Shown here piece after piece: positions 37,253 through 53,167 of a DNA stretch of 64,000 bases. This DNA comes from Snodgrassella alvi (GTDB lineage: Bacteria; Pseudomonadota; Gammaproteobacteria; Burkholderiales; Neisseriaceae), in the NCBI RefSeq assembly GCF_002777425.1, contig NZ_MDVC01000115.1, forward strand, positions 124,001-188,000, given 5' to 3'. The stretch's first letter is position 1. Each line of letters starts with the position of its first letter. The position numbers and the translations under genes were made by a program. The notes under the pieces were generated by a model. The model ran no database searches. It saw only the letters and a program-made list of their open reading frames with translations, and was not told the DNA's origin.

Positions 37253-37327
37253 TGGCACGCCCACGGGGAATCGAACCCCGGTTACCGCCGTGAAAGGGCG
37301 ATGTCCTAACCGCTAGACGATGGGCGC
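37253..37327 (-). tRNA. tRNA-Glu (anticodon TTC)
   Basis: On the minus strand a full cloverleaf can be drawn: acceptor GCGCCCA pairing with TGGGCGT, T loop GGTTCGATTCC, anticodon loop CTTTCAC with anticodon TTC, and an encoded 3' CCA (37255-37253). It is 10 nt downstream of tRNA-Arg and precedes a terminator. Confidence 0.96.
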
Positions 37328-37337
37328 GTTGGCTTGA

Positions 37338-37414
37338 TGGTGCACCCGGAGCGATTCGAACGCCCGACCCTCTGGTTCGTAGCCAGATACTCTATCCAAC
37401 TGAGCTACGGGTGC
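37338..37414 (-). tRNA. tRNA-Arg (anticodon ACG)
   Basis: Minus-strand cloverleaf with acceptor GCACCCG/CGGGTGC, D-arm AGCTCAGTTGGATAGAGT, anticodon stem CTGGC and GCCAG-like arm around loop CTACGAA (anticodon ACG, normally edited to ICG), T-arm GTTCGAATC and an encoded CCA. First gene of a two-tRNA operon. Confidence 0.96.
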
Positions 37415-48589: not shown

Positions 48590-49363
48590 TCAGCTGTTGC
48601 TATCCGCACTGAAAATATCATCAAAAGATTGATTGCCCATAACCCTACCAAGTTTATGTTTAAGTATCGTAGATATATTAGAAAATAAACAATCTCCCAT
48701 GCTGATCCGTTTAACACCTAACTCTTTGAGCTTTTCAAAACCAGGTAGATCAGGCATAGCCATAACATTAATAGGTAACCGAGATTTATCTACAAGAAAT
48801 TTAATATCTGATTCATGCACTAAACAAGGGATAAAAATTCCATCAGCACCAGCTTTTGTATACAGTTCAATGCGTTTTTGGGTTTCATCCAGCTTATTCG
48901 GAACATTTAATAAATAAGTATCTGTTCGGATATTAAGAAAAATATTTAGATTAGCTTCATTAAGTCTGCTTTTAACCTCATGAATAATATTAGCGAAGCT
49001 TTTACCATCAACCAGTATTCGTTCTTCATTCACAATACTATCCTCAAGATTAATTCCTGCAATTCCATATGTAGCCAGCTCCTTAATATTATTGACTATT
49101 TCAGTTGGTATTCTGCTATACCCTGCCTCCATATCAACTGAAAGAGGTAAAGATGTGTTATCAGCAATTCTTTGTATAACATAACACAACTCCTTAAATT
49201 GCATCTTTTCTCCATCTTCATAGCCAAGCATACAAGCAATCGCAGCACTGGAAGTACCAATAGCCTGAAAACCTAGTTTTTCGGCTATCCTGGCACTATT
49301 TGCATCCCAAACATTACATAGTATTAAAGGATAAGAATTTTTATGTAATTCATTAAATGTCAT
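48590..49363 (-). CDS. isocitrate lyase/PEP mutase family protein
   Basis: A 257-residue TIM barrel of the PEP mutase/isocitrate lyase superfamily. Seen: NVWDANSARIAEKLGFQAIG with TSSAA, then LPLSVDMEAGYSR (metal-site Asp and Glu), GIAGINLEDSIV and FLNIRTDTYLL. The CPC or EDK catalytic loop of true isocitrate lyase or PEP mutase is absent, so it is likely a C-C lyase of the oxaloacetate/methylisocitrate type with unknown substrate. GAGG lies before the ATG. It is clearly more AT-rich than poxB and mutY and borders the S24 accessory region, which hints at horizontal gain. Confidence 0.8.
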   Translation of the reverse strand: MTFNELHKNSYPLILCNVWDANSARIAEKLGFQAIGTSSAAIACMLGYEDGEKMQFKELCYVIQRIADNTSLPLSVDMEAGYSRIPTEIVNNIKELATYGIAGINLEDSIVNEERILVDGKSFANIIHEVKSRLNEANLNIFLNIRTDTYLLNVPNKLDETQKRIELYTKAGADGIFIPCLVHESDIKFLVDKSRLPINVMAMPDLPGFEKLKELGVKRISMGDCLFSNISTILKHKLGRVMGNQSFDDIFSADSNS

Positions 49364-50038
49364 AATAAAACCTCAGAAGTTATTGATGACATTAATAATA
49401 GAATTAATAAATTGAATACGACAACCTAAGAATTGACAAGTATTTTTTTATTTAGAGCACTAATCACATATAGCATTGATTATTAAACATTATGTACTAT
49501 AAAATAAATAAGACTACTGAAACTTTCAACCCAGCGGCGATTTGCATCAAAGTCATTTTCAATATCATTCAAAAACAAAAAAATATTCCTGATACATTAT
49601 TTTATCCATATAAATATTACAGCATTAAATGATTAATTTCAGATACAAAAGTACTCAAGCTATTCTGAATTATTCATCTGCCTGAGTAGCCGGCAATCAG
49701 CCTCAAGTATAAAAAGATAAATACTTCATTTTTAACAACACTCAATCTAAATTTAATAACCATTAAAATCATATAGTTAAACATTAACACTAATTAATCC
49801 TTTTCAATCAAAATAATTTAAAGTATTGTTATTTCTTAACCTTTATTCAACATGAATAAAGGTTATCTGTCAGCAGGGTTTTCGAACAGTCAGGCATTTT
49901 TGACAATGCGGGAAAACTTCTGGCTCTAAGATTAATATGATCATTCAACGCTGTAATAGACTACCCAGCCATTGATATAGAATCAATAGCTGGGTAGTTT
50001 TCGCTTTACCATGTTTATATTTAGATGCTGCAATGTCA
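49364..50038. other. AT-rich non-coding region with two strong hairpins; possible small RNA
   Basis: About 675 bp without a coding frame. It contains a perfect 12-bp hairpin AACCTTTATTCA/TGAATAAAGGTT (49838-49849, 49853-49864) and, about 95 nt later, a terminator-like stem (49960-49998). The second has U-rich sequence only on the plus strand, yet no annotated plus-strand gene precedes it, since the gene to the left is on the minus strand. A short plus-strand transcript ending near 50002 is the simplest explanation. Confidence 0.4.
49960..50002 (+). terminator. rho-independent terminator with no assigned upstream gene
   Basis: Arms 49960-49976 (ACTACCCAGCCATTGAT) and 49982-49998 (ATCAATAGCTGGGTAGT) pair over 17 bp with one mismatch around a 5-nt loop, followed by TTTTCGCTTT overall. 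It is oriented for plus-strand transcription. Confidence 0.75.
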
Positions 50039-50056
50039 GTCTGAAAATAATCAGAC
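50039..50056. promoter_or_regulatory. possible operator upstream of the S24-domain gene
   Basis: Perfect palindromic arms GTCTGA (50039-50044) and TCAGAC (50051-50056) with a 6-bp centre, 11 bp upstream of the -35 box. The placement suits a regulator binding site, but it is short and could be chance. Confidence 0.35.
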
Positions 50057-50067
50057 ACTTGAAACTT

Positions 50068-50096
50068 TTGACCTTTTATATAGGTAATTTTATAAT
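50068..50096 (+). promoter_or_regulatory. near-consensus sigma70 promoter of the S24-domain gene
   Basis: TTGACC (50068-50073), exactly 17 nt, then TATAAT (50091-50096). This is the best promoter match in the window. Transcription would start about 50103, leaving a leader of about 30 nt with a full AAAGGAGGT ribosome binding site (50118-50126) 8 nt before the ATG. Confidence 0.82.
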
Positions 50097-50134
50097 AAGC
50101 TAAAGTAAAGAAATTGCAAAGGAGGTATATATAA

Positions 50135-51013
50135 ATGCCGGCAAAGGTGACATTTACAGAGGCTAAAAACTTATACGAATCAAAATTTCCAAATAATAAA
50201 CTGATTAAGTTTGAATCAGCATCAAGACCTTGTTCTATATTATGTTACAAACATGGCTTGGTAGAAGATTTAGGTTTCAGGAATTTAAGGCTCTCCAAAT
50301 TTGGTTGTCCTAAATGTGCACGGGATCATCGTAGGCGAGGCGTTGACGCTAAAATTAAGCAGTATTTAGATATGAATTCTAGTAAACGTTTAAATAAGGT
50401 TAAGAAATTTGGTGATACCGTACCTCGTAGAACAGATAAAACCAGACGGATCAAGTCCTGTACCTTAGCAGAATCTCCGGTGGAGTATAGTAGTAAAGGA
50501 TCTACTGCCAAACACGCTTTAAGTAATAAAGCGCGTACTGGGCAACTTTCTTCATCTCATGTACAGCCAGTATTCGATGATAAGCCAGAAGATTTACCAA
50601 AAAACAACTTTGCTCTAGTACCGTATCATAGTGATGTAAAAGTGGCTGCCGGATTAGGGCGTTTTAATAATACTCTTGAAACTTTGCCTATTCCTTTAAG
50701 TCTACCTGAGCTACAAAAGTTAGGCGTTCAACCAAATAACATTATTTGTTGTCGAGTTCCTGATGATAGTATGGATCCAATACTACAAGATGGTGCTTTG
50801 GTAGGAATTGATACGGCGGAAACTGAGATTCGTAGTGGAAAAATTTATGCGTTTATTGACAATGATGGTTGGTCGTATATAAGAATTTTAGTTAAGACGG
50901 ACGATTCTCGTATAAAGATTCATAGTTACAATTATTCTTATGAAACAGAGATAGTTATTCCTGAATCAATTCGTGTTATTGGCCGTTTGTTCTGGGCTGC
51001 CTCAATATTTTAG
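50135..51013 (+). CDS. fusion of DUF723-like zinc module and S24/LexA-type repressor C-terminal domain
   Basis: A 292-residue protein of unusual make-up. Residues 1-66 (TFTEAKNLYESKFPNN, then C37-x2-H40 in CYKHG and C58-x2-C61 in GCPKC) resemble DUF723-type zinc-ribbon modules associated with phage and homing-endonuclease proteins. Residues 67-155 are a basic, Ser-rich linker. Residues 160-292 follow the CI/LexA S24 fold: VPYHSDVKVAAGLG with an Ala-Gly (172-173) where self-cleavage occurs, the nucleophile Ser212 in DDSMDP, and a closing RVIGRLFWA. The expected catalytic Lys is Arg250 (YIRIL). No helix-turn-helix is visible. It has a near-consensus promoter and ribosome binding site, and AT-rich composition suggests phage-like origin. 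Confidence 0.7.
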   Translation: MPAKVTFTEAKNLYESKFPNNKLIKFESASRPCSILCYKHGLVEDLGFRNLRLSKFGCPKCARDHRRRGVDAKIKQYLDMNSSKRLNKVKKFGDTVPRRTDKTRRIKSCTLAESPVEYSSKGSTAKHALSNKARTGQLSSSHVQPVFDDKPEDLPKNNFALVPYHSDVKVAAGLGRFNNTLETLPIPLSLPELQKLGVQPNNIICCRVPDDSMDPILQDGALVGIDTAETEIRSGKIYAFIDNDGWSYIRILVKTDDSRIKIHSYNYSYETEIVIPESIRVIGRLFWAASIF

Positions 51014-51163
51014 GCAAATTGTAATCAATTGCTGCATCAAGTACGCCATCTTATGCATTACAAATATTCAAAATATTGACCAATGCTTCAGGTTTGACAG
51101 GATTTACCTATCTACTTAGCTACCGAACAGGGTTCACCTAAAAACATATAGATGCTTTAATTA

Positions 51164-53167
51164 TCACGATAACCGGCGAACAGCCTGCTTTACTTTACGA
51201 TACCATGCACGCTGTTGCCGTTTTTCCGGCATACCGGCAGCTCCATACTGCCAATTAATATATTGAGCCAGTAAAGCAGCCAAACTATCATTAAGTAAAC
51301 CATGTTCAGCCAGAATAGCCTGTAGTTCCAGCGGGCCGATGGCCGATAACTCCGTCTCGTCCCCTTCTATAACAGCCTGCTTAAGCAGATTGATACCATC
51401 AGTCAATGGCTGCGCCTGCATATTTCCCTGCTTACGCAGCCAGATAATCAGTGGCAGCGCAGTAATCATAATCGCAATCGCAATCACCAGTAACAATGCT
51501 GACTTGGGTATATCTTTTAACTTAAGCCAGTCCAGTATCGAATTTTGGCGGCCAGAGTCATAGTTAACTACCCATTGCTGCCAGTAAAACTGGCCTTTAT
51601 CCAGATATTTTTGTAATAATGGATAAGGTGAAGACAAACCAGCTCGCTGTTCTGCTGGCAAAGCATTTTCCACCCCGTTTTCCACCCGTACTGATGAAAC
51701 AGCACTGGTTGGGTCTACCCGCTGCCATTTACCTTTTTCTGCTATCCAGATTTCTGTCCATGCATGAGCGTCCTTACTGCGAATCTGCCAGAACTTTTCA
51801 TCAGGATGGTATTCGCCTCCCTGATAGCCAATCACAATTCGTGCCGGAACACCTACCGCACGCGCCAGCCATACAGTAGCATCTGCATAGTCTTCACAAA
51901 AACCTTCTTGACTACTAAATAAAAAATAGTCGGTTTTATTCAGAGATTCATGACTGCGTTTTGGTGTTAGCGTATATTGAAAACCACCATTACGAAAATA
52001 AGCCAGTATATGGCGGATAAATTCCTCACTGCTGTTGGACTTCTTAGCCAATTGTTGCGCCAGCCGGCGGGTTTCAGGATTAAGTCTGGCCGGCAGTTGG
52101 GTATAGTAATTCAGCAAACTCCGATCCATTTGCTGATGCAGATAAGGTACCAGCTGAGAATATAAATGCACCCGGCGCAAGCCTTCCCGACTTTTATTCA
52201 CCCGTACCACATTTCCCACCCGCCGGCTTAAATCAGACTGACTGTCTGCCAGTGGCTGATCCAGCGCCGGTATACGACCATGATCATCCTGAATAATCAG
52301 CTGATAGCCCACCAGCCTGCTATCAGGTCGCTGTGCTAAAACAGCCCTGTCTGACAACTGCAAAGTATCTTCATCGGTATACTGTTCTTTCACAGCATGC
52401 CACTGCCCGTCCTGATTATTACCCATCACCATCACGCGCCAGTATAGATCGGCATTGCGAGGCATCACATCATTATCAAAAGTAACATTAAACGCCAGTG
52501 CATTACTCGGAATCAGATTACTGATACTGCCAGCGTCAAGCGTATCTGATAACCCAGTTATGGAAGATTGCTGTGGCTGCGGTACACCCCATAATGGCGC
52601 ATCCTTGCGCGGTACCACCATAAACAGAATCACGGCCAGCGGAAAAGACAGAACCAAAACCAGTGCGCCCTGCCGCATAGCGGCAACCGGATTAATACCA
52701 GCCAGTAAGCCCAGCGAAGAAATCAGGCAGAATAAAGCCGCAATCAGCCATGGTGCCATCAGCATGCTTTGATTAAACAGCAGGCCGCCACCCATTAAGA
52801 TCAGCTGTGCCAGTAACAATATCTGCCAGTCGCGCAGAGTTTCGCCCTCAAAAGCCTTAAGGACAATCATCAGCATCAGCAGCGAAACACTGGCATCGCG
52901 GCCTATAATTGTTCCAATACGAAAATATACCCATACAGCAGTAGCCACCAGCAATAACACCAGTGCCCACAGCGGCAGCTTTTTAACATTGGTAAAAAGC
53001 AGGGCTACACGCACAATCAACAGCACAGCAAATGCGGCGCCTACGCTCAGTGGCAAATCAAATAATAAAGGTAAAGCTACCCACGCCAGCATCAGCAATA
53101 AAATAAACTGCGTACGTACCGGAGGAGATTTACGTAAAAAAATCGGATCAGCAAGCCACATCACCAT
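51164..53167 (-). CDS. tgpA: TgpA-type transglutaminase-like membrane protein
   Basis: A 667-residue protein with about six or seven N-terminal membrane segments (DUF3488 region), a large periplasmic transglutaminase-core domain and a final membrane segment (SALLLVIAIAIMITALPLII) before a cytoplasmic tail (DUF4129-like). The Cys-His-Asp triad is seen in EGFCEDYADATVWLARAVG, KDAHAWTEIWI and RVDPTSAV. Relatives are essential or stress-linked in some Gammaproteobacteria, substrate unknown. Starts at 53167 or 53161, overlapping the DUF58 stop, so it is coupled to the operon moxR-DUF58-tgpA. Confidence 0.85.
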   Translation of the reverse strand: MVMWLADPIFLRKSPPVRTQFILLLMLAWVALPLLFDLPLSVGAAFAVLLIVRVALLFTNVKKLPLWALVLLLVATAVWVYFRIGTIIGRDASVSLLMLMIVLKAFEGETLRDWQILLLAQLILMGGGLLFNQSMLMAPWLIAALFCLISSLGLLAGINPVAAMRQGALVLVLSFPLAVILFMVVPRKDAPLWGVPQPQQSSITGLSDTLDAGSISNLIPSNALAFNVTFDNDVMPRNADLYWRVMVMGNNQDGQWHAVKEQYTDEDTLQLSDRAVLAQRPDSRLVGYQLIIQDDHGRIPALDQPLADSQSDLSRRVGNVVRVNKSREGLRRVHLYSQLVPYLHQQMDRSLLNYYTQLPARLNPETRRLAQQLAKKSNSSEEFIRHILAYFRNGGFQYTLTPKRSHESLNKTDYFLFSSQEGFCEDYADATVWLARAVGVPARIVIGYQGGEYHPDEKFWQIRSKDAHAWTEIWIAEKGKWQRVDPTSAVSSVRVENGVENALPAEQRAGLSSPYPLLQKYLDKGQFYWQQWVVNYDSGRQNSILDWLKLKDIPKSALLLVIAIAIMITALPLIIWLRKQGNMQAQPLTDGINLLKQAVIEGDETELSAIGPLELQAILAEHGLLNDSLAALLAQYINWQYGAAGMPEKRQQRAWYRKVKQAVRRLS

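Follow-up and report, generated by a model that had tools for sequence, protein, structure and literature searches.

A DUF723 zinc module joined to a Peptidase_S24 domain in a putative repressor of Snodgrassella

The stretch of DNA analysed here (the window, 64,000 nucleotides) comes from the bumblebee gut bacterium Snodgrassella alvi, strain App4-8 (GCF_002777425.1), which was isolated from Bombus appositus (PMC9239279) and whose assembly comprises 2,577,724 bases in 115 contigs. On the plus strand, an intact open reading frame that starts with ATG (50135-51013) encodes a putative DUF723-S24 repressor of 292 amino acids, as delineated from the reading frame, Pfam and four orthologues. The gene stands alone in an AT-rich stretch, between a PEP-mutase gene (48590-49363, minus strand) and a transglutaminase-type gene that was named by eye (51164-53167, minus strand). 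Phage genes, for which the first-pass annotation had proposed to survey the neighbourhoods of homologues, do not lie beside it; membership of a prophage was rejected, as the neighbours resemble housekeeping genes by eye, and the only tRNA genes of the window are at 37253-37414. Upstream of the gene we located a sigma-70-like promoter, TTGACC-17-TATAAT (50068-50096, plus strand), which matches 11 of the 12 consensus bases and whose two hexamers do not vary among the four copies; the region holds 13 promoter-like sites, not clearly above the mean of shuffled sequence (9.2, sd 2.7). It is followed by a ribosome-binding site, AAAGGAGGT (50118-50126, plus strand), that is kept in all four copies. 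A conserved palindrome, GTCTGA-N6-TCAGAC (50039-50056), lies 11 bases upstream of the -35 box and is ambiguous, being either a candidate operator or the relic of an intergenic hairpin. Each of the four carrier genomes has a single copy of it, in every case at this gene; however, the pattern is also present elsewhere in 6 of 10 non-carrier genomes, a reversed control pattern turns up in three genomes, and in G001 the same 18 bases sit inside a longer hairpin between genes, and we therefore do not claim the palindrome as an operator. The intergenic stretch of about 770 bp that precedes the gene also holds a perfect 13-bp inverted repeat (TAACCTTTATTCA / TGAATAAAGGTTA, 49837-49865), and no clear uptake sequence emerged from the over-represented words of the window.

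Pfam divides the protein into two domains, both well above their curated cut-offs. The N-terminal one (residues 5-62; 50147-50320, plus strand) is DUF723 (PF05265, E 1.3e-15, 57.5 bits versus a cut-off of 20.9), such that the mere resemblance to DUF723 noted in the first-pass annotation proved to be true family membership, with the two motifs C37-x2-H40 and C58-x2-C61 exactly where they had been placed. The C-terminal one (residues 170-285; 50642-50989, plus strand) is Peptidase_S24 (PF00717, E 1.9e-15, 57.0 bits versus 23.3) and contains Ala172-Gly173, Ser212 and Arg250; searched as a whole, the protein has only one further listing, a sub-cut-off toprim family within the S24 part. In between, a linker of about residues 67-155 (50333-50599, plus strand) was delimited from Pfam, the orthologue alignment and structural models. 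Phage CI-like repressors normally combine S24 with a helix-turn-helix. No helix-turn-helix family was listed by Pfam at E ≤1, be it in the full-length search or in that of residues 67-159 by themselves, the place in which such a domain might have hidden, and the proposal that a zinc module stands in place of the helix-turn-helix holds at the level of matches above cut-off. The silence of Pfam is not proof, because it lists no helix-turn-helix either for L003, another S24 protein of the window genome, whose N-terminus resembles a helix-turn-helix by eye. When residues 1-70 were scanned alone, CARF-assoc_HTH appeared at E 0.15 (12.5 bits versus a cut-off of 27) over residues 33-57, that is, inside DUF723. 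Pfam detected no nuclease domain above cut-off, the CapR domain (PF21817) was absent from the listings at E ≤1, both at full length and for residues 1-70, and NCBIfam gave no match above cut-off. By PHROGs, the C-terminal part is a repressor and the N-terminal zinc part a weak endonuclease match (E 0.0096). In a defence library, the window protein reached E 0.041 at best and the second fusion, described below, 0.031; both matches were set aside.

The zinc motifs of the module are shared by its relatives: C37, H40, C58 and C61 are invariant in an alignment of 55 rows chosen by score (among them the best 42 of 56 modules and 10 from a profile search of phage loci), and a text pattern finds both motifs in 49 of the 56 modules. 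AlphaFold modelling of residues 1-93 with the module alignment (mean pLDDT 77.6) yielded a helix-hairpin-helix zinc layout comprising a helix (7-17), three strands (22-26, 32-37 and 41-47) and two further helices (48-53 and 59-92), with CxxH at the turn of a hairpin and CxxC where the long helix begins. This is the usual layout of a treble clef, and the related DUF4379 is a probable treble clef according to Pfam. The 'zinc ribbon' of the first-pass annotation is an imprecise term, as CxxH and CxxC take treble-clef-like positions in the model. Beyond about residues 1-95 the full-length model is poor, the linker continuing as a single long helix to about residue 92 and then being disordered or unmodelled. 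Among solved structures, Foldseek was uninformative (best VIA-align Z only 3.2), and no PDB relatives were retrieved by phmmer with the whole protein or by the module profile.

Relatives of the module are found in phages, where they accompany nucleases. A tblastn search of phages with the module gave 17 records, at weak E-values of 0.02 to 0.8, of which 5 are annotated as endonucleases or homing endonucleases, 7 hypothetical proteins and 5 without annotation. Pfam placed DUF723 above cut-off in all four of the phage proteins scanned, with T5orf172/MUG113 as an above-cut-off partner in two, DUF4379 in two and CapR in one; the two that lack T5orf172/MUG113 have no nuclease domain at E ≤0.01. In a viral model library no module match reaches E 0.001, the best (E 3.8e-3) being nameless, and the named entries among the first 50 matches include a homing endonuclease, a GIY-YIG protein, CapR-domain proteins and restriction enzymes. 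A search of the viral_contigs collection with the window's own sequence as query returned relatives of neither half. Pfam itself describes DUF723 as a family of unknown function. DNA binding has been anticipated for these zinc modules of phage homing endonucleases, from which the satellite-encoded repressor CapR evolved, while the zinc finger of I-TevI regulates cleavage and does not serve as a DNA binder (PMC10448857); related domains occur in nucleases of phage group II introns (PMC12350094). DUF723 of phages is predicted to be a zinc DNA-binding module of homing endonucleases, and we infer that it binds zinc and DNA in the window protein as well. Many of the phage proteins found by the module profile on the collected loci hold several modules, whereas the window protein has only one, and its specificity is accordingly uncertain.

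For the S24 half, 349 relatives were found in viral contigs, from which 80 loci were kept, corresponding to 68 distinct proteins; 67 of these were used (one truncated row, L149, was omitted), 35 of them as aligned segments. Pfam recognised S24 in all 67 prophage relatives and HTH_3 in 57; the 25 families listed for them, out of 26, do not include DUF723. Akin to this, a DUF723 profile run on 116 S24 loci matched four, all copies of the window gene (from three genomes), and none of the other 112. The converse search, with an S24-segment profile, found no S24 in 60 DUF723 loci, a weak negative because the same profile also misses the S24 half of L091, which Pfam does detect. Comparison of the window protein with the 35 aligned homologues revealed serine at the Ser212 column and glycine at the Gly175 column in all 35, glycine at the Gly173 column in 34 and alanine at the Ala172 column in 30. 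The catalytic lysine, present in 35 of 35, is Arg250 in the window protein. As opposed to the full CI/LexA C-terminal pattern that had been ascribed to it, the protein thus retains the Ala-Gly site and the serine at their conserved columns but not the lysine. The four orthologues differ in this respect: G010 has lysine and the other three, including the window copy, arginine; one lineage thus has an intact Ser/Lys dyad and three a changed one. On other contigs of the window genome, two S24 proteins (L003 and L004) seemingly also carry arginine at the catalytic lysine position by eye. Two further comparisons were abandoned: an S24 profile against PDB, which matched nine proteins over 16-19 residues only, and a joint alignment of modules and S24 segments, which was misaligned.

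Full-length copies of the gene are present in 4 of 14 Snodgrassella genomes, namely the window genome, G008, G009 and G010, as judged from a search of 61 genomes with the whole protein. The G008 and G009 copies are 92% identical to the window protein, while the G010 match falls in two pieces around an insert of 22 residues in the linker. As both domains score above cut-off in four separate assemblies, an assembly artefact, which had been named as a possible source of the joined architecture, is very unlikely and was rejected. Across the family, DUF723 matches occur in 6 of 83 genomes (window genome included) and both domains above cut-off in 5 (the four carriers and G078); for the sixth DUF723 genome, G061, Pfam lists no S24. 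In the wider samples, which overlap, DUF723 matches including the window genome number 3 of 399 (order), 3 of 369 (class) and 1 of 398 (phylum), and the two domains occur together in the window's own genome only. Pfam lists no S24 at E ≤0.1 in the DUF723 proteins of G110, G306 and G567, the last of which has I-HmuI NUMOD-like domains that are likewise nuclease-associated, and a weak DUF723 match in G766 is probably spurious, lying antisense to a reading frame that resembles ribosomal protein L3 by eye. DUF723 is rare in the genome samples searched, and co-occurrence of both domains in many genomes, which the first-pass annotation would have taken as support, was not observed, with 5 of 83 family genomes and the window genome alone in the wider samples, but the pairing does recur in a second genus.

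Comparison with gene-less relatives allowed us to delimit the locus. G002, G005, G007 and G013 keep both flanks with 68-87 bases between them, against which the window carries a block of about 1.17 kb (~50004 to 51176); the other relatives are too diverged or rearranged for this comparison, and no flank gene was detected in G006. At the left border of the extra block, sequence comparison identified an inverted repeat (49960-49998) that is shared with the gene-less relatives. A neighbouring gene yields a tree, covering 12 of the 14 Snodgrassella genomes, in which the carriers form a group with weak support (61/30, 64% of bootstrap trees), and one gain is for this reason indistinguishable from loss in G002. 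The PEP-mutase gene (48590-49363), in an AT-rich stretch, is present in G002 and has no match at the site in G005, G007 and G013. In G005, an ordinary lone HTH_3+S24 protein (L068, 758-1435, minus strand) is encoded some 0.2 kb past the shared segment that adjoins the empty site, so that different species have different solitary S24 regulators in this one intergenic region. Pairwise dN/dS among the four orthologues is 0.20-0.32 for the whole gene and, with few changes behind each value, 0.03-0.21 for DUF723, 0.18-0.43 for the linker and 0.17-0.43 for S24, indicating purifying selection that is strongest in DUF723. Taken together, our results show that the window gene encodes a real, selected two-domain protein composed of DUF723 and Peptidase_S24.

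The second fusion resides in G078, a genome of another Neisseriaceae genus that we infer to be Neisseria. Its protein also has 292 amino acids, with DUF723 at E 7.6e-29 and Peptidase_S24 at E 1.3e-7, yet BLAST finds only the DUF723 part in common with the window protein (E 4e-8, residues 22-76), and by eye the S24 half lacks the cleavage-site and lysine residues. Within L091 (7912-9947), the gene adjoins a Fic-domain gene on the same strand. No match to this fusion was found in phage or plasmid collections, and matches are present in 6 of 46 genomes of its genus, G078 itself included: G061 matches by DUF723 only, G062 and G069 are 34-38% identical over the C-terminal part, and G074 and G103 are 28% identical, in frames with a stop. 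The G062 protein scores 34.9 bits for HTH_3 (cut-off 23) and 22.0 for S24, just under its cut-off of 23.3, and that of G069 conversely 26.6 bits for S24, above cut-off, and 21.0 for HTH_3, just under 23. Since a similar C-terminal half sits behind a helix-turn-helix in sister species, these sequences fit a swap of the DNA-binding part. Elsewhere in G078 (L092, 3776-5146), three small DUF723 proteins are adjacent to one another, and the two that were scanned show DUF723 followed by sub-cut-off NUMOD1/I-HmuI-like matches and no nuclease domain; these are possible further nuclease-derived DNA-binding proteins. The related DUF4379 was found in none of the 14 Snodgrassella genomes.

We consider it fairly probable that the window protein is a CI/LexA-like transcriptional repressor of phage type in which the helix-turn-helix has been replaced by a nuclease-derived DUF723 DNA-binding module, a reading supported by the C-terminal relatives, which are CI-type repressors, and by the association of the module with phage nucleases. 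The S24 domain would dimerise the protein and the DUF723 modules, connected to it by the long linker, would bind DNA, perhaps at the gene's own promoter in an autoregulatory manner. Self-cleavage of S24 would then part the modules and free the DNA, which is plausible for the G010 copy with its serine and lysine, and might be slow or absent in the window copy with its arginine. As the catalytic lysine is arginine, the window protein may repress constitutively or answer to a different cue. Selection maintains this lone chromosomal gene in several bumblebee Snodgrassella lineages.

Conservation of the Ala-Gly site, Gly175 and Ser212 and the lysine of the G010 copy are also what would be expected of a true damage-responsive switch, the possibility raised in the first-pass annotation, in which RecA filaments trigger cleavage between Ala172 and Gly173 and derepress the targets, as for LexA or CI. 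We regard this as unlikely: the serine and the cleavage site are there, but the switch is doubtful for the window copy because the lysine of the dyad is arginine, as in two other copies and against lysine in all 35 homologues, and no phage or damage-response genes are directly adjacent (reading frames judged by eye). In LexA, a Lys156-to-Arg change leaves cleavage mainly at high pH.

The altered lysine of three copies could also be taken, along with the solitary position in an AT-rich stretch and the absence of the gene from the same site in G002, G005, G007 and G013, for a sign that the gene is a functionless remnant of a decaying prophage or homing endonuclease. We disfavour this as highly improbable in view of a gene that is intact in four assemblies, its dN/dS values and its intact promoter and ribosome-binding site. 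It is quite unlikely, too, that DUF723 serves to sense zinc or redox state or to dock other proteins, with the S24 half acting through a partner. The regulatory zinc finger of I-TevI (PMC10448857) and the presence of a single module would suit such a role, but DUF723-type modules accompany nucleases in phages, the module occupies the N-terminal place that the helix-turn-helix has in relatives, and it is the most constrained part of the protein.

If the repressor reading is true, an S24 switch domain can take up a DNA-binding module that is unrelated to the helix-turn-helix and comes from selfish nucleases, and the single-module protein would offer a convenient route to the DNA read by DUF723. 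We can go further only speculatively, with a scenario that we think rather improbable as a whole: a zinc module of phage homing endonucleases may have been domesticated into LexA/CI-type regulators, perhaps twice, and the Snodgrassella version could be a resident immunity-type repressor free of helix-turn-helix, or a sentinel against incoming phage DNA, that reads phage-like or self-encoded sites.

S24 repressors are a standard type, and CapR is a published precedent for the evolution of a repressor from a nuclease module. As far as the literature searched reaches, it is the combination of DUF723 and S24 that is new, and the unusual architecture remarked on at the outset is real. No S24 fusion is named in the available portions of the DUF723 literature; searches for fusions of S24 peptidases with zinc-ribbon repressors found none, a broader search giving papers irrelevant by title and start of abstract. 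The accessible part of PMC10448857 cites CapR, as well as the AP2 factors of plants, to illustrate how nuclease modules have become regulators, and does not describe an S24 switch on such a module.

In light of known systems, the window protein is closest in its C-terminal half to CI/LexA-type S24 repressors (PF00717 with HTH_3), with which it shares the S24 domain, the Ala-Gly site and the nucleophilic serine, at 27-38% identity to eight aligned homologues of the same bacterial family. It differs from them in having DUF723 and no helix-turn-helix above cut-off, in lying outside a prophage, and in the arginine that replaces lysine in 3 of the 4 copies. UmuDAb of Acinetobacter is likewise an S24 repressor whose N-terminus was not recognised as a helix-turn-helix by conserved-domain search; however, it was modelled with a LexA-like helix-turn-helix and keeps Ser119/Lys156 (PMC4807011), whereas the N-terminus of the window protein is a zinc module. 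The phage homing endonucleases of the T5orf172/GIY-YIG kind share zinc modules of the DUF723 type, but the window protein has no nuclease domain above cut-off, a single module and an attached S24. Akin to the window protein as we read it, CapR, which represses capsid genes on behalf of the PLE satellite, draws its DNA-binding part from T5orf172 homing-endonuclease zinc modules that are kin to DUF723 (PMC10448857). The two nevertheless differ, in that PF21817 is not listed for the window protein, the zinc motif is CxxH...CxxC here and CxxC...CxC in CapR, and the window protein has an S24 domain.
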